64,000 bases of DNA from positions 1 to 64,000 of the forward strand of contig JAFIGV010000015.1 of assembly GCA_017849575.1 (NCBI GenBank), in the 5' to 3' direction. The notes beneath the pieces were generated by a model. The model saw nothing but the letters and a program-made list of their open reading frames with translations, was not told the DNA's origin and searched no databases. This DNA is from Flavipsychrobacter sp. Its GTDB lineage: Bacteria; Bacteroidota; Bacteroidia; Chitinophagales; Chitinophagaceae. The translations under genes and the position numbers were made by a program. The first letter of the stretch is position 1; each line of letters begins with the position of its first letter. Positions 12,855 through 19,384 of the stretch are shown piece by piece.

Positions 12855-13565
12855 ATGAGCGACAGACTGGTTTATATAGCCGAACAGTTTAAGGGGCATT
12901 TTATCACTGCGCCGGCAGAGATGGCCCGCAAGCTGAAAGACATCAAAGCTTATGTGTTTGACTGGGATGGCGTTTTCAATAGCGGATTGAAAGACGCCGG
13001 TGGCAGTAGCCCGTTTAGCGAAGTGGACTCGATGGGCACCAATTTGCTGCGCTTTCACCATTCTTTAGTTCACCATGAACTTCCTTCCGTGGCCATTATC
13101 TCCGGTGAAAACAATCAGGCTGCAAGATATTTGGCTCAACGTGAGGCATTTCATGCCGTGTACTCCGGTATGAAGTTTAAGAATGAAGCGCTGCTGCATT
13201 TTTGTAAAGAACAAAATCTGAAACCTCACCAGATCGCCTTCTTTTTTGATGATGTACTTGATCTTTCGGTTGCACAACAAGTCGGCGTACGCATCATGGT
13301 AAGCCGTGCTGCCAATCCTTTGTTGCTGGACTTTGCCGTTGCAGGCAATATGGCCGATTATCTTACCGGCTGTGAAGGGGGCAGGGGAGCGGTGCGGGAA
13401 AGCGTGGAGCTACTGATGGGATTGAGTGGTGATTACCATGAGACCGTTACCCATCGAATGAATTTCACAGAAACCTATCAGAGCTATCTTGCGAAGCGAA
13501 ACGCTGTGGCCTCCAACTTTTTCATTAGCGAAAACAGCGTCATTACACAACAGTCACATTCATGA
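12855..13565 (+). CDS. KdsC-like HAD phosphatase (probable KDO-8-phosphate phosphatase)
   Basis: A 236-residue haloacid dehalogenase-fold protein. Motif I is VFDWDGVFNSG, giving nucleophile Asp36 and Asp38; motif II is IISGENNQAARYLA; the later Asp pair is FFFDDVLDL. The order resembles KdsC, which removes phosphate from KDO-8-phosphate. It is about 50 residues longer than typical KdsC and lacks the usual DGY/GxG loop, so the assignment leans on context: its stop codon overlaps the start of kdsB by 4 nt, the next enzyme of the pathway. A different sugar-acid phosphatase remains possible. Confidence 0.7.
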   Translation: MSDRLVYIAEQFKGHFITAPAEMARKLKDIKAYVFDWDGVFNSGLKDAGGSSPFSEVDSMGTNLLRFHHSLVHHELPSVAIISGENNQAARYLAQREAFHAVYSGMKFKNEALLHFCKEQNLKPHQIAFFFDDVLDLSVAQQVGVRIMVSRAANPLLLDFAVAGNMADYLTGCEGGRGAVRESVELLMGLSGDYHETVTHRMNFTETYQSYLAKRNAVASNFFISENSVITQQSHS

Positions 13566-14302
13566 TCTTAGGAATTATACCGGCCCGGTTTGCCTCTACC
13601 CGTTTCCCCGGCAAGCCGCTTGCAGACATCAGAGGGAAATCAATGGTGCAAAGAGTGTATGAACAATCCATAAAGAGCCGTTCGCTCAGTGAGGTTGTCG
13701 TAGCCACGGATGATGAACGGATCTATGAGCATGTACTCGCTTTTGGTGGCAGGGCGGTGATGACTGATACGGACCATCCGAGCGGCACAGACCGTTGTCG
13801 TGAGGCCATGGAACGAACAGAAGGCGACTGGCGGTATGTGATCAATATACAGGGCGATGAACCTTTTATTTCGCCCGGTCAAATCGATAGTTTGGCCGCC
13901 GTTTTAGAGGATGGTACTGCAGAGCTGGCAACGTTGATCATTCCTGTAAATGATCATGATGTACTCTTTGACATGGGCGAGGTGAAGGTGGTCCTCAATA
14001 CCGAGTCTGAAGCCTTATACTTCAGCCGGATGGTCATTCCCTACATTAAGGGCGTCGATCAAAAAGAATGGCATCTGCATCATCACTATTTCAGGCATGT
14101 CGGCATGTATGCCTATCGTGCGGATGTACTCAGAAAGATCACGAACCTGCCGGTTTCTTCTCTTGAAAAAGCAGAGTCGCTGGAGCAACTGCGCTGGCTG
14201 GAGCATGGACTCAAGATAAAGTGCGCTGTGACCGACGTGGACAGTCATTGTATTGATACCCCCGAGGATATTGAAAAGGTCTTGAGAATGATGGCATTGT
14301 AG
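13562..14302 (+). CDS. kdsB: 3-deoxy-manno-octulosonate cytidylyltransferase (CMP-KDO synthetase)
   Basis: A 246-residue nucleotidyltransferase that activates KDO with CTP for lipid A core assembly. The N-terminal signature IIPARFASTRFPGKPLADI is diagnostic, as are VVVATDDERI, HPSGTDRC, and NIQGDEPFI. The substrate-binding stretch HVGMYAYR and the end SHCIDTPEDIEKV are also typical. Length equals E. coli KdsB. ATG 13562 overlaps the stop of the preceding phosphatase gene (ATGA), which suggests translational coupling. Confidence 0.97.
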   Translation: MILGIIPARFASTRFPGKPLADIRGKSMVQRVYEQSIKSRSLSEVVVATDDERIYEHVLAFGGRAVMTDTDHPSGTDRCREAMERTEGDWRYVINIQGDEPFISPGQIDSLAAVLEDGTAELATLIIPVNDHDVLFDMGEVKVVLNTESEALYFSRMVIPYIKGVDQKEWHLHHHYFRHVGMYAYRADVLRKITNLPVSSLEKAESLEQLRWLEHGLKIKCAVTDVDSHCIDTPEDIEKVLRMMAL

Positions 14303-14404: not shown

Positions 14405-16027
14405 ATGGAGCAGGTTATCAACTTTTTCAAAAAGCTTTTCGATCCTACCGGCTTCCCGCCGAGGTGGCACTGTGGCACAGGCTGGGACGATTTTACGGGG
14501 TGGCTGTATATTTTGAGCGACTTCTCCATCTGGGCCGCTTATTTTGCCATTCCGCTCATTATTATCCGGTATATCACCCGTCGGCACGATGCGCGTTTTA
14601 CCAGGATTTATTTTCTTTTCGCAAGCTTTATTCTGGCCTGCGGCACCACCCATCTTGTTGATGTTATCATCTTCTGGCACCCTGTTTACCGGTTTTCGGC
14701 TTTGGTGCGTTTTGTGACCGGCATAGTGAGCTGGCTTACCGTCATCGTATTGGTAAAGCTGCTCCCCACGGCTTTCAGCCTCAAAAGTGCACAAGAACTT
14801 GAATCGGAGGTAGAACAACGTAAGCGGGCCGAAGAACGCCTGCGGCTGCAGAACGAAATGCTGAATGAGGCTCAGGAAATTGCCCGTATGGGCTACTGGC
14901 AGTGGGATGTACTCCATGACCGTATTACCTGGTCTGACAATTTGTATCGGATGTACGGCCTTCGCCCGGGTATGGACATCAATTACGAGGTATATCTCAA
15001 CATAGTACATCCGGAAGATCGGGAATTTGTATTGGGAAATATACAGTCGGCCCTGGATAAGGGCGTGTTCGAAGAATTTTATCATCGCATTTTGTTGCCC
15101 GACGGACAGGTGCGCAATATTCACAGTAAAGGCACGCTCCTCAGGAATGAACAAGGGGAAGTGGTGAAAATGATAGGGACTGCACAAGACGTGACGGAAC
15201 AAAAGCTTGTGGAACAGGAACTGCTGTCGAAAACTCAGGACCTTGAGGCGACCAATGTGGAACTTCAGAAGTTTGCATCGGTAGTGTCGCACGACCTGAG
15301 GGAACCGCTGCGCAAGATCATCACCTTTGCCTCCATGTTGGATAAAGAGATTGAAGACCCGGAAAGCAAAGCACGGCTGTACTCCGGTAAAATTTCGGGC
15401 TCGGCAGTACGCATGCAGCAGCTCATTGAGGATATTCTCAACTTCTCTTACCTCAATGCGCAGGATGTTCAGTTTTCCCGGGTGGACATCAATGCAGTGA
15501 TCGATCAGGTGTTGTCGGATATGGAAGTGCAGATATCCGATAGCGCAGCTAAGATTGAAGTTGGCAGAATACCGGCAATAGAAGGCAACGCAAGTCAGAT
15601 CGGACAGCTCTTTCAAAATCTTCTGAGCAATGCCATTAAGTTTCATCAGCCCGATGTACCACCGCAGGTTTCTGTGTTTTCAGAAATGTTGACCGGAAAC
15701 CAACTCTCAGGTGATTTACTCAAATCCGCTCCTTTCAGTGTGTTGAGTAATCCTAAGTTCTGGGAGCACGAACGTTTTGTGAAGATCTATGTTCAGGACC
15801 ACGGCATCGGTTTCGACCCGGCGTATGTTGACCGGATCTTCAATATTTTTCAGCGCCTGCACACACGTTCCGAATACGAGGGAACAGGTATTGGACTGGC
15901 GATCTGTAAAAAGATAATAGATATACACCACGGCAGCATCACGGCGTCGTCAGTTGTGGGATCCGGTGCCACTTTTGTGATTATCCTTCCCGTGTCTCAG
16001 CGCAACTTTCGTGGCAGCAACCCATAA
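14405..16027 (+). CDS. Hybrid-less sensor histidine kinase with an ethylene-receptor-like membrane domain and a PAS domain
   Basis: A 540-residue kinase. Residues 33-125 hold three membrane helices whose sequence follows the plant ETR1 ethylene-binding domain: LSDFSIWAAYFAIPL aligns with ISDFFIAIAYFSIPL, and ACGTTHLVDVIIF with LCGATHLINLWTF. Asp39, Tyr46, Ile49, Pro50, Cys79 and His83 correspond to ETR1 Asp25, Tyr32, Ile35, Pro36, Cys65 and His69; Cys65 and His69 bind the Cu(I) cofactor. A coiled coil (about 128-155), a PAS domain (about 155-270), HisKA with His296 in SHDLREPL, and an HATPase domain (DHGIGFDPAY, GTGIGLAICKK) follow. No receiver domain or response-regulator gene is adjacent, so the partner is unknown. 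Copper and ethylene binding are inferred. Confidence 0.88.
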   Translation: MEQVINFFKKLFDPTGFPPRWHCGTGWDDFTGWLYILSDFSIWAAYFAIPLIIIRYITRRHDARFTRIYFLFASFILACGTTHLVDVIIFWHPVYRFSALVRFVTGIVSWLTVIVLVKLLPTAFSLKSAQELESEVEQRKRAEERLRLQNEMLNEAQEIARMGYWQWDVLHDRITWSDNLYRMYGLRPGMDINYEVYLNIVHPEDREFVLGNIQSALDKGVFEEFYHRILLPDGQVRNIHSKGTLLRNEQGEVVKMIGTAQDVTEQKLVEQELLSKTQDLEATNVELQKFASVVSHDLREPLRKIITFASMLDKEIEDPESKARLYSGKISGSAVRMQQLIEDILNFSYLNAQDVQFSRVDINAVIDQVLSDMEVQISDSAAKIEVGRIPAIEGNASQIGQLFQNLLSNAIKFHQPDVPPQVSVFSEMLTGNQLSGDLLKSAPFSVLSNPKFWEHERFVKIYVQDHGIGFDPAYVDRIFNIFQRLHTRSEYEGTGIGLAICKKIIDIHHGSITASSVVGSGATFVIILPVSQRNFRGSNP

Positions 16028-16030
16028 GCA

Positions 16031-17077
16031 TCAGGGCAGCAGGTCGTAGCCGATGTGACGGTAGGTTGTAGATTCAAAATCCGTTGATTGGAAGTTTACC
16101 GCCTCACCGTGCAGTATTTTCTGGTAGTATTGACGGGCCGGTCCGGGTATGTCCTTCCGGTCGTGCAGGTTTAGAAAATTGCTATGCCCTTCACCGGCTA
16201 TTTTATTAAAGTTGACATAAGATGCCGCCGAACATAAAGGCCGGCGCACCTGCTTGCCAAGTTGGTAGCGTTTCGTCATCAGGTAAGCTCCGCCAAGTGT
16301 GAAATCGCCGGGATTGTAGTTGATAAAAATCCTTCGGCTAAAAAGGACTTTATTGAGCAGGCTTGCATGTCGTCGCTGCGGGATGCAGGCCGCATTCAGA
16401 ATCAGGTTGTCGGCCCACACCTGGTCATTATATCGGTTGATGTTTCGGGTTTTGATTATCTGTTGCAACACGATATTTCCCATGCTATGAAAAAATAAAG
16501 AAAGATGGCCGGTACCAAGGGCTCCCTTCACTTTCAATTGTTCTATCGTATCAAGCACCGGCAGAAAATCTTTGTACGCGATGGTTGCGTTTTTTCGGGC
16601 GAAGAAGTAGTTGCCCAGTCGTTTTTTATGCGCGGTAATGCTTGGGTAGTCCATCAGAATGATGTTGACACCATATTGCGCAGCCATGTTCATACCCCTG
16701 TCCACATCTGAAGTAAAAAATTTTCCCATTCCTTCGGTGTAGATCACCCAGTCCCGATCGGGTTGGGGCATCAGACCAACGGCTTGCTGCAGGCTTGCTA
16801 CGGGCAGTACCTTCCACATTCCCCCGGCGGAGAAAACAAAGAAGTAGCGAATTTGGCTGCCATCGCGCTCTTCCGGAAGGTAGCGTAGTTCATTTTTGTG
16901 CAGAGCCCTGTTGGTGGCAACGATCAGGACCGTGTCTTCGGCGCTCACAACCGGGACAACGGCAGGCGGACAAAGCTGCAATCGTTGCCAGAAGGCTTCG
17001 CTGTTGAAGTAACTGAATTGAGCATTGGAGGACATTGCCGCCAGAAAACAAAGCATGATGATAAGAAAGCGCCGCAT
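16031..17077 (-). CDS. Secreted alpha/beta-hydrolase-like protein
   Basis: The 348-residue product has a signal peptide (MRRFLIIMLCFLAAMSSNAQ) and therefore probably acts in the periplasm or outside. The central region resembles the alpha/beta hydrolases of the DUF900 type: a strand VNIILMDYPS, then LSLFFHSMGN with a nucleophile serine in a FHSMGN elbow (the first Gly of the usual G-x-S-x-G is replaced). A late GEGHSNF may supply the catalytic His. The substrate is unknown. It converges on the histidine kinase gene with a 3-nt gap between stop codons. Confidence 0.65.
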   Translation of the reverse strand: MRRFLIIMLCFLAAMSSNAQFSYFNSEAFWQRLQLCPPAVVPVVSAEDTVLIVATNRALHKNELRYLPEERDGSQIRYFFVFSAGGMWKVLPVASLQQAVGLMPQPDRDWVIYTEGMGKFFTSDVDRGMNMAAQYGVNIILMDYPSITAHKKRLGNYFFARKNATIAYKDFLPVLDTIEQLKVKGALGTGHLSLFFHSMGNIVLQQIIKTRNINRYNDQVWADNLILNAACIPQRRHASLLNKVLFSRRIFINYNPGDFTLGGAYLMTKRYQLGKQVRRPLCSAASYVNFNKIAGEGHSNFLNLHDRKDIPGPARQYYQKILHGEAVNFQSTDFESTTYRHIGYDLLP

Positions 17078-17200
17078 GACCAGTTTTGCCTTAAAGTAGA
17101 TAATCGGTTTTCGAAAATAACGCGCAAATCACCCTTTTGGTTGTATGAAATAACAGAATGTTCGTTTTAAGTTTGTTGCCGTTATCAATTTTAAGTGCTG

Positions 17201-19384
17201 ATGTCTTCTAAAAAAACATGCCTGCTGCTGACGGGTGGACTTGTGCTTTCTGTGTTTTCTTTTGCGCAAAACAAGCAGTTTACCATCGCAGAGGCCACAA
17301 ATGGATTGTCCACCACACTTGCGGTGAAATCTGTTCGCCAGCCATCATGGCAACCCGGTTCTCACAGTTTTTATCAGGTGGTGAAAGAGGGCAGGGACGA
17401 ATACCTTGTCCGTACGGTTTTCCCTTCAGGGACATCTGATACGATTGAGACCTTGCCTCACCTCAACACTTCTTTATATGGCAAAGACAGTCTGAAGGGT
17501 TTGCCGCTGTTCAACTGGATCGACCACGACTATGCTTATTTTAACAACGGTAATACCATCGCTCGCGGAACGCTTACCGGAAATCAGTTTCGTTGGAACA
17601 CCTGGGTGAAACTACCAGCCGGAGCCGCGAACGTGACGGTAGATAAAAGCATGCAGGTGGCCTACACCCTTGAAAACAATCTCTGGCTTGCAGCAAGCGA
17701 TGGCACACTGCGGGCGGTCACAAATGATGCTGATTCCAACATTATTAATGGCCAGGCGGTACACCGTAATGAGTTTGGTATTGAGAAAGGGATATTCTTT
17801 TCGCCCAAAGGTCATTTTCTGGCTTACTACCATATGGACCAGACTATGGTGAATGACTATCCCGTAGTTGACTGGTCGGTTACGCCCGCGTCAGTGCGTA
17901 TGGTTAAATATCCAATGGCTGGTGGCACTTCACACGAAGTGACCTTGCGCGTTTTTGATCCTGCTAAAAACAAGACAGTAGAATTGCAGACCGGCGAACC
18001 CCGCGATCATTACCTTACAGCAGTAACCTGGAGCCCTGATGAACGGTACCTCTTTATTGCTGTGCTTAACCGCGATCAGAACCACGCCTGGCTCAATCAA
18101 TATGACGTAACAACCGGTAAGAAAATCAGAACACTTTTTGAAGAATCTTCAGCCACCTATGTAGAACCTCAGCATCCTCTTGAGTTTCTGCCGGGTAGTA
18201 ATGAACGGTTTATCTGGTGGAGCAATAAGGACGGTTTTCAGCACCTTTATTTGTATAATACCAGGGGTACGGAACTGAGACAACTTACCAAAGGTCATTT
18301 TGATGTGAACGAAATAACAGGGTTTGACGAAAAAGGCCGGAAGCTGATTGTTACTGCAGCAAAGGAGAGTCCGTTGGAAAAGCACAGTTATACGGTGGAT
18401 TGGGACAATGGAAATATGCAGTGCATTGACGACGAGCCGGGTGTTCATACAGTATTGCCCAGCGATGATGGCCAGTTTCTCTATGACAGTTATACCGCCG
18501 CCGGAGTGCCGAGGGTGGCCGTTGTACGCGCGGAATCGGGTAAGGTGTTGAAAACCTTGCTCAAGGCTCCGGACCCGCTTGCCGGTTATCAGCGCCCGGA
18601 AATCAGGAACATAACCCTCAAAGCAGATGATGGAACCCCGCTTTATGCCAAGATGATTTTGCCCACCCCGTTCGATCCTAACCGTACCTATCCCGTTATC
18701 GTCTATCTCTACAACGGGCCGCATGTACAGCTTGTGCGCAACAGCTTTCCCGAGAGTGGCAATCTCTGGTACGAGTTTATGGCGCAGCGCGGATACATCG
18801 TATTTACCATGGATGGACGCGGCAGCGCCAACCGGGGACGTAAATTTGAACAGGCTACTTTTCGCAAATTGGGAACGGTAGAAATGAATGACCAGTTGAA
18901 AGGTGTGGCCTACCTGCGTTCGTTGCCCTATGTGGATAAAAACAGGCTCGGTGTTCATGGTTGGAGCTTTGGAGGATTTATGACCACATCACTGATGCTC
19001 AGGCATCCGGGCGTCTTTAAGGTAGCAGTTGCCGGAGGCCCAGTAATGGATTGGAGTATGTATGAAGTAATGTACACCGAGCGCTATATGGATACTCCTG
19101 AGCAAAATCCGGAAGGCTACAAAACCTCAGCGCTTTTTGATAAAGTAAAGAACCTGAAAGGCAAGCTGCTGCTTATACATGGCACCGACGATGCGACGGT
19201 GGTCTGGCAGCATTCTATTAAATTTTTAAAGAAAGCGGTGGATGAGAATGTACAGGTGGATTACTTTGTGTATCCCGGTTACGAGCACAATGTACGCGGC
19301 AAAGACCGGGTGCATCTGATGCAAAAAATTACCGATTATTTCGATGATTATCTTAACCCAGGCGCGCAGGCGTTGAGAAAATAG
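17201..19384 (+). CDS. S9B dipeptidyl peptidase IV-type serine peptidase
   Basis: A 727-residue exported peptidase (signal peptide to about Gln23 in FSFAQ). Residues 40-490 form the beta-propeller of the DPP IV N-terminal domain, including the HRNEFGIEKGIFFSPKG segment. The C-terminal hydrolase domain has Ser589 in HGWSFGG, Asp664 in HGTDDATV and His696 in YEHNVRG as the catalytic triad. The family cuts X-Pro or X-Ala dipeptides from peptide N-termini; the Glu motif of true DPP IV is not obvious to me, so exact specificity is open. I use ATG 17201; a GTG lies 6 nt upstream. Confidence 0.9.
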   Translation: MSSKKTCLLLTGGLVLSVFSFAQNKQFTIAEATNGLSTTLAVKSVRQPSWQPGSHSFYQVVKEGRDEYLVRTVFPSGTSDTIETLPHLNTSLYGKDSLKGLPLFNWIDHDYAYFNNGNTIARGTLTGNQFRWNTWVKLPAGAANVTVDKSMQVAYTLENNLWLAASDGTLRAVTNDADSNIINGQAVHRNEFGIEKGIFFSPKGHFLAYYHMDQTMVNDYPVVDWSVTPASVRMVKYPMAGGTSHEVTLRVFDPAKNKTVELQTGEPRDHYLTAVTWSPDERYLFIAVLNRDQNHAWLNQYDVTTGKKIRTLFEESSATYVEPQHPLEFLPGSNERFIWWSNKDGFQHLYLYNTRGTELRQLTKGHFDVNEITGFDEKGRKLIVTAAKESPLEKHSYTVDWDNGNMQCIDDEPGVHTVLPSDDGQFLYDSYTAAGVPRVAVVRAESGKVLKTLLKAPDPLAGYQRPEIRNITLKADDGTPLYAKMILPTPFDPNRTYPVIVYLYNGPHVQLVRNSFPESGNLWYEFMAQRGYIVFTMDGRGSANRGRKFEQATFRKLGTVEMNDQLKGVAYLRSLPYVDKNRLGVHGWSFGGFMTTSLMLRHPGVFKVAVAGGPVMDWSMYEVMYTERYMDTPEQNPEGYKTSALFDKVKNLKGKLLLIHGTDDATVVWQHSIKFLKKAVDENVQVDYFVYPGYEHNVRGKDRVHLMQKITDYFDDYLNPGAQALRK

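Follow-up and report, generated by a model that had tools for sequence, protein, structure and literature searches.

Introduction

Ethylene receptors have been reported from plants, fungi, cyanobacteria and Azospirillum (available portions of PMC11819568, PMC10452086, PMC6586836, PMC13012798, PMC7700396, PMC6682694 and PMC5285503), and putative receptors are present in other bacterial phyla according to the available text of PMC11819568. In the same available text AzoEtr1 of Azospirillum brasilense Sp7 is a histidine kinase with an overlapping receiver gene whose first 130 residues show saturable ethylene binding, and ethylene receptors are linked with biofilm formation by Azospirillum and with changes at the cell surface of Synechocystis. 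In the Synechocystis receptor SynEtr1 the ethylene-binding domain is at the N-terminus of a histidine kinase, and ethylene alters surface properties and biofilm in that organism (PMC6682694 and PMC11819568, available sections). Ile62 of plant ETR1 is counted among the essential residues in the part of PMC6586836 at hand. In the available portions of the open-access literature that we searched, we found no report of an ethylene receptor from Bacteroidota.

The window analysed here is a stretch of 64,000 nucleotides from Flavipsychrobacter sp., a member of the Chitinophagaceae (Bacteroidota). A first-pass annotation of this stretch had likened the membrane domain of one of its sensor kinases to the ethylene-binding domain of ETR1.

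Results

A sensor kinase with the ethylene-binding residues of ETR1

The kinase gene (14405..16027, on the + strand, as are all features of the gene given below) begins with ATG, has no internal stop and encodes an ethylene-receptor-like sensor histidine kinase of 540 residues. Pfam assigned residues 32-125 (14498..14779) to the ETR1_N ethylene-binding domain with 109.4 bits against a cut-off of 27 (E 1.1e-31), and the match covers positions 3-96 of the 97 positions of the profile that represents plant ETR1 (PF25487). The sensor domain is followed by PAS_3 (residues 174-260, 14924..15184), HisKA (residues 287-352, 15263..15460), with the phospho-acceptor His296 in the motif SHDLREP, and HATPase_c (residues 395-531, 15587..15997). 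All three matches lie above their Pfam cut-offs, which confirms the fusion to PAS-HisKA-HATPase noted by the first-pass annotation, and with both HisKA and HATPase_c present the kinase output is complete. An NCBIfam scan of the protein returned general kinase models only, all below their own cut-offs. Unlike plant ETR1 the window kinase has no GAF or receiver domain, and its ATP-binding kinase is of the phytochrome/HK853 type.

The first-pass annotation had named six residues as counterparts of ETR1 positions (Asp39, Tyr46, Ile49, Pro50, Cys79 and His83), and each was found where it had been placed. With Ile76 corresponding to ETR1 Ile62, the window kinase has the full set of seven ETR1 positions for ethylene binding, as judged by spacing and by alignment with locus L239 of A. 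brasilense; we take ETR1 Tyr32 to be one of the seven essential residues. By the sequence and the alignment, the predicted binding residues of helix 1 (Asp39, Tyr46, Ile49 and Pro50) fall at 14519..14554 and those of helix 2 (Ile76, Cys79 and His83) at 14630..14653, with Cys79 and His83 the predicted Cu(I) ligands. The intervals of 40 residues from Asp to Cys and of 4 from Cys to His are the same as in ETR1 (25/65/69) and AzoEtr1 (35/75/79), in the numbering given in the available text of PMC11819568. The residues are also kept in close homologues: both Cys79 and His83 have counterparts in 86 of 89 HATPase-bearing domains, and all seven positions are intact in 71 of the 89. The assignment to the ethylene-binding family likewise stands, given the Pfam score and 36% identity with the L239 domain.

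L239 is a plasmid locus of A. brasilense with a 525-residue open reading frame followed by an overlapping 135-residue receiver gene. As the size of the frame and the overlapping receiver gene fit the architecture described in the available part of PMC11819568, L239 is very probably AzoEtr1, the same gene in another strain. Taken as such, AzoEtr1 resembles the window kinase in its three-helix domain, PAS domain and histidine kinase (525 versus 540 residues), in the identity of all seven binding positions and in having a single N-terminal cysteine. It differs in that the sensor domains are only 36% identical over the aligned part and in that a receiver gene overlaps it downstream, whereas the window gene lacks one and sits behind kdsB. 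The N-terminal cysteine of the window protein, Cys23, lies in the motif PRWHCG (residues 19-24, 14459..14476) ahead of the first membrane helix and aligns with the lone N-terminal cysteine in L239 and in an Acaryochloris locus (L240). In cyanobacterial receptors this single cysteine may form a dimer disulfide, according to the available text of PMC6682694. SynEtr1, compared by its description in the available parts of PMC6682694 and PMC11819568, likewise joins an ethylene-binding domain at the N-terminus to a histidine kinase; it is bifunctional according to the latter, whereas the window protein has no recognised sensor besides PAS.

An AlphaFold2 model of the window kinase (mean pLDDT 82.7) has three membrane helices at residues 29-59, 66-91 and 95-125, and its pTM of 0.48 leaves the arrangement of the domains unsure. 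Cys79 and His83 are predicted to lie one turn apart (i, i+4) on the helix of residues 66-91; the site requires such closeness, but they are close by construction, as any residues so spaced on one helix would be. Foldseek likened the kinase part of the model to solved bacteriophytochrome and HK853 kinases, and among the 50 matches listed for each of this model and that of the short form described below only the PAS and kinase parts were matched. Among solved structures, a search by sequence gave no relative of the sensor domain, its one match being due to chance (E 0.29). From its sequence, then, the window gene is a probable bacterial ethylene receptor, a further member of an established kind.

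Glycan genes adjoin the kinase

The first-pass annotation had seen no response regulator nearby, and none of the 54 receiver-domain matches of the genome falls within the 64-kb window; two are on the same contig, at about 212 and 242 kb. The single-domain candidates of the genome that come closest to a receiver of the neighbour type, at 33-34% identity, are C32:25794-26162 and C24:7968-8321. Directly upstream of the kinase, across a gap of 102 bp, is kdsB, encoding CMP-KDO synthetase (13562..14302, + strand; NCBIfam TIGR00466, above cut-off). The start of kdsB is overlapped by a gene for a KdsC-like phosphatase (12855..13565, + strand), which matches NCBIfam KdsC models below their cut-offs. 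The kinase also lies behind kdsB in G001 (locus L098), the only other genome of the genus examined that has the kinase.

We surveyed the neighbourhoods of 54 loci, which gave 49 distinct loci after five duplicate records were merged. A receiver gene was called when it lay on the same strand within 800 bp downstream with E 1e-15. Such a gene is directly downstream in 26 of the 49 loci, as open frames of 136-216 residues in 25 and of 368 residues in one, and in none of these 26 does a kds or rml/UDP-sugar gene immediately precede the kinase. Twelve loci, the window's included, have no receiver downstream; in these, kdsB, kdsA or rmlD comes immediately before the kinase on its strand, at 1-141 bp from the open frame. 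The downstream DNA at L229 and L098/L148 is only 300-630 bp. NCBIfam matches above cut-off were obtained for kdsB of the window, kdsA of L154 and L098, and rmlC and rmlD of L122. The other 11 loci have neither neighbour by these limits. They include L124, for which there is no DNA downstream, and L141, which encodes a short form. At L155 the receiver match is weaker (E 1e-6), and at L231 a kdsA-kdsC-kdsB set lies about 1.5 kb upstream, separated by a single gene. Kinases of other Chitinophagaceae (Niastella, Pseudoflavitalea and Ferruginibacter) have the domain order of the window kinase and keep both the cysteine and the histidine; they differ from it in having a receiver-domain gene directly downstream.

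The glycan-linked kinases were not shown to be one clade, a matter that the tree has too few columns to settle, and the only supported grouping of the window kinase (96) is with L004. Surface glycans are supplied by genes for KDO, CMP-KDO and dTDP-rhamnose alike, and the KDO genes are housekeeping genes. Beside the kinase of G001 (L098:4653-7994) there is kdsA together with a fructose-6-phosphate-aldolase/CBS fusion; we presume that a further gene there is KdnB-like, which would suggest a modified KDO.

Spread of the domain

The Pfam model found ETR1_N at two places in the window's genome, the window kinase and one other gene, and in none of 14 control genomes. It was found in 70 of 394 genomes of the same family (23 of 101 genera), in 21 of 395 genomes sampled from the phylum and in 10 of 59 genomes of relatives. 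Within the genus the kinase is present in only two of the seven genomes examined, the window's (G000) and G001, and hence the response would seem dispensable. Four others (G002, G003, G004 and G006) have only a short form of the protein, and G005, which is 81% complete, has neither. A sample of 58 loci from named records came from a profile search of contigs with an alignment of short-form domains and is therefore skewed to short-form relatives; a contig search with the whole kinase as the query gave no matches.

Asparagine replaces aspartate at the ETR1 Asp25 position in five of the 92 domains that keep both copper ligands (L022, L028, L040, L044 and L046). The available text of PMC13012798 gives about 100-fold weaker ethylene binding for this substitution in a plant receptor and mentions natural aspartate variants.

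Loss of copper ligands in a second gene and its relatives

The second ETR1_N gene of the window's genome, L002, encodes 348 residues (domain at G000:C16:191991-192278; gene at L096:6905-7951). Pfam found ETR1_N with 86.3 bits (cut-off 27), PAS_3 below its cut-off and HisKA, and found no HATPase. By alignment, serine and tyrosine stand in helix 2 in place of the Cu(I) ligands Cys65 and His69. As L002 thus lacks two defining features of ethylene receptors that were tested, the Cu(I) ligands and the kinase catalytic domain, it should not be called an ethylene receptor.

Ligand loss was surveyed at 156 loci comprising 118 distinct domains, with HATPase scored by a purpose-built profile and 15 proteins checked with Pfam. 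Both ligands are present in 92 of the 118, and 86 of these 92 proteins have HATPase. Of the six that do not, five (L083, L003, L039, L035 and L124) are very short or reach the end of the stretch, and only some were checked. The sixth, L076 (G394), is a true short form of 353 residues that keeps both ligands and lies away from feoB, and is a possible intermediate. In the 26 domains with ligand loss the pair reads C/Y (12), C/F (5), S/Y (4), C/Q (2), T/F (1), G/Y (1) or N/H (1), and 23 of the 26 also lack HATPase. Put otherwise, ligands are lost in 23 of 24 clear short forms versus 3 of 89 HATPase-bearing proteins. Those three, L092 (C/Y), L094 (C/F) and L059 (N/H), in which Pfam found HATPase, argue against a strict rule and are possibly further independent cases of re-use.

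Two other features differ between the classes. The acid next to the phospho-histidine is the general base in HisKA kinases, and an acid follows the histidine in 70 of 86 intact kinases, versus lysine or arginine in 20 of 23 short ligand-lost proteins. The N-terminal cysteine is kept in 85 of 92 ligand-intact domains versus 3 of 26 ligand-lost domains.

Residues S288, H289, R292 and P294 (L002 numbering) are invariant in a 24-row alignment. Whole-gene dN/dS is 0.023-0.054 in the six of eight pairs that were unsaturated, and that of the membrane domain is at most 0.064 in six computable pairs. The invariant residues and low dN/dS argue that the short forms are working genes, and the whole-gene values, which indicate purifying selection, rule out a decaying pseudogene.

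In a tree of 116 rows, built with the two ligand columns left out, 21 of the 23 short proteins with ligand loss fall together on the same side of a branch whose SH-aLRT is 99. Among these 21, very long branches leave the positions of L095, L010 and L009 unsure. The C/Q pair (L025 and L141) and L076 fall elsewhere. The fewest changes on the tree are five for ligand loss and three for the short form, and an independent-pairs test gave at most three pairs. The association of ligand loss with HATPase loss is therefore one of few events, one of them large, and tests of correlated change are without power.

feoB adjoins the short form

FeoB signatures immediately precede the gene in 15 of 20 short-form loci, the exceptions being L007, L008, L010, L076 and L095. 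A set with wider flanks (L096, L099-L116 and L141), which has genomes in common with the first, gave feoB in 17 of 20, all but L100, L101 and L141, the last of which starts at a contig end. Pfam identified FeoB in L102 and FeoB_C adjoining the short-form gene in G000, G001 and G002; L002 of the window's genome sits directly behind feoB. Of the 14 loci in which the gap between the two genes was measured, 12 have 133-162 bp. A gene for a CHU_C-type secreted protein precedes feoB in 13 of 17 loci, and beyond, on the opposite strand, are genes for IscA-, IscU- and IscS-like iron-sulphur assembly proteins (Pfam) in up to 11 loci.

The adjacency is absent in G003 and G006, where feoB is about 20 kb off, and in G004, where it is on another contig. 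As a control we examined 30 of 48 feoB matches in relatives. A short form adjoins in only three, all of the window's genus, and at one more locus (L169) the match is weak (E 7e-4) and lies on the other strand. The adjacency is thus not general among these 30 loci. It occurs in three genera (codes g1, g72 and g116); as these are related, inheritance of the gene order, rather than function, may account for it. In the available portions of the open-access literature searched we found no description of a feoB-linked form or of natural loss of the copper ligands; the feoB-linked short form is apparently an undescribed variant.

Discussion

We propose that the window protein is a membrane-bound sensor histidine kinase in which Cys79 and His83 would hold a single Cu(I) for the binding of ethylene. 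The signal would pass from the three-helix domain through the PAS linker to the complete HisKA-HATPase kinase, which would act on a distant response regulator encoded elsewhere, the likeliest output being cell-surface make-up (KDO- or rhamnose-type glycans). Copper and ethylene binding seem likely from the conserved sites, and the explanation as a whole (ethylene-binding kinase, distant regulator and cell-surface output) we consider fairly probable. The first-pass annotation had left the cue and output as unknown; the neighbouring genes narrow the output to a suggestion of surface glycans. That is our best guess on the strength of the KDO and rhamnose neighbour genes and of the effects on biofilm and surface that have been published for ethylene receptors. 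As a deduction from gene position it is quite possible, if at somewhat less than even chances.

The cue may differ even if the mechanism holds in outline. The ETR1 fold and Cu(I) site could have been kept for sensing copper, redox state or another small alkene or gas, as the relatives from soil and water are not obviously plant-bound, the direct evidence for ethylene comes wholly from other proteins and the same family has re-used the ETR1_N domain without copper ligands. However, the ethylene positions that are not ligands (D, Y, I, P and I) are also kept, all seven being intact in 71 of the 89 HATPase-bearing domains, and we regard another cue as unlikely, if worth weighing. A much less likely scheme has the window kinase pairing with the copper-less, kinase-less L002 in mixed dimers or in competition. 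Both genes are present in G000 and G001, and both proteins retain the membrane domain, PAS and DHp helices; their H-boxes are unlike, however (SHDLREP in the kinase versus SHRMRSP in L002), and the four genus members that have only the short form mean that it cannot depend on the kinase, which rules it out as an obligatory partner. Chance or convergent likeness of low-complexity membrane helices has virtually no chance of being right, being already refuted by the Pfam profile result (109.4 bits against a cut-off of 27) and opposed by the absence of the domain from 14 control genomes and by an identity of 36% with the Azospirillum domain that extends to the ligands.

If the window protein does bind ethylene as we favour, functional ethylene reception would extend to the Bacteroidota, with the gene order offering a concrete output in LPS/KDO and rhamnose glycans. 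Interest beyond the window gene lies in the contrast of receiver-linked with glycan-linked kinases and in a relative, encoded in the same genome, that is linked to feoB and lacks both the copper ligands and the ATPase. For that relative we offer a tentative reading that we think may well be wrong. In one branch of the Chitinophagaceae (Taibaiella, Flavipsychrobacter and kin) the ETR1_N domain may have been freed from ethylene and re-used for iron uptake as a copper-free, kinase-dead membrane sensor or partner, which in the window's genome would exist alongside a true ethylene receptor. The histidine ligand, the N-terminal cysteine, the acid by the phospho-histidine and the whole ATPase domain would have been lost, and in the window's genus the cysteine ligand too. 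Loss of the Cys65 and His69 counterparts in a maintained paralogue raises the question, beyond plant genetics, of the role of a copper-less ethylene-receptor domain and of the reason for its proximity to feoB.

Two minor observations concern the setting of these genes. Downstream of the window kinase are a gene without a Pfam match (16031-17077, - strand) and one for a DPP4-like peptidase (17195-19384, + strand), and the two recur near related kinases (L098 and L227; L154, L117, L118, L228, L229, L230 and L234). ETR1_N also occurs on plasmids, with matches in 18 of 72,556 plasmid records, among them a Novosphingobium plasmid typed as conjugative (L241, NZ_CP028348.1) and the Acaryochloris plasmid that carries L240 (NZ_CP071718.1).
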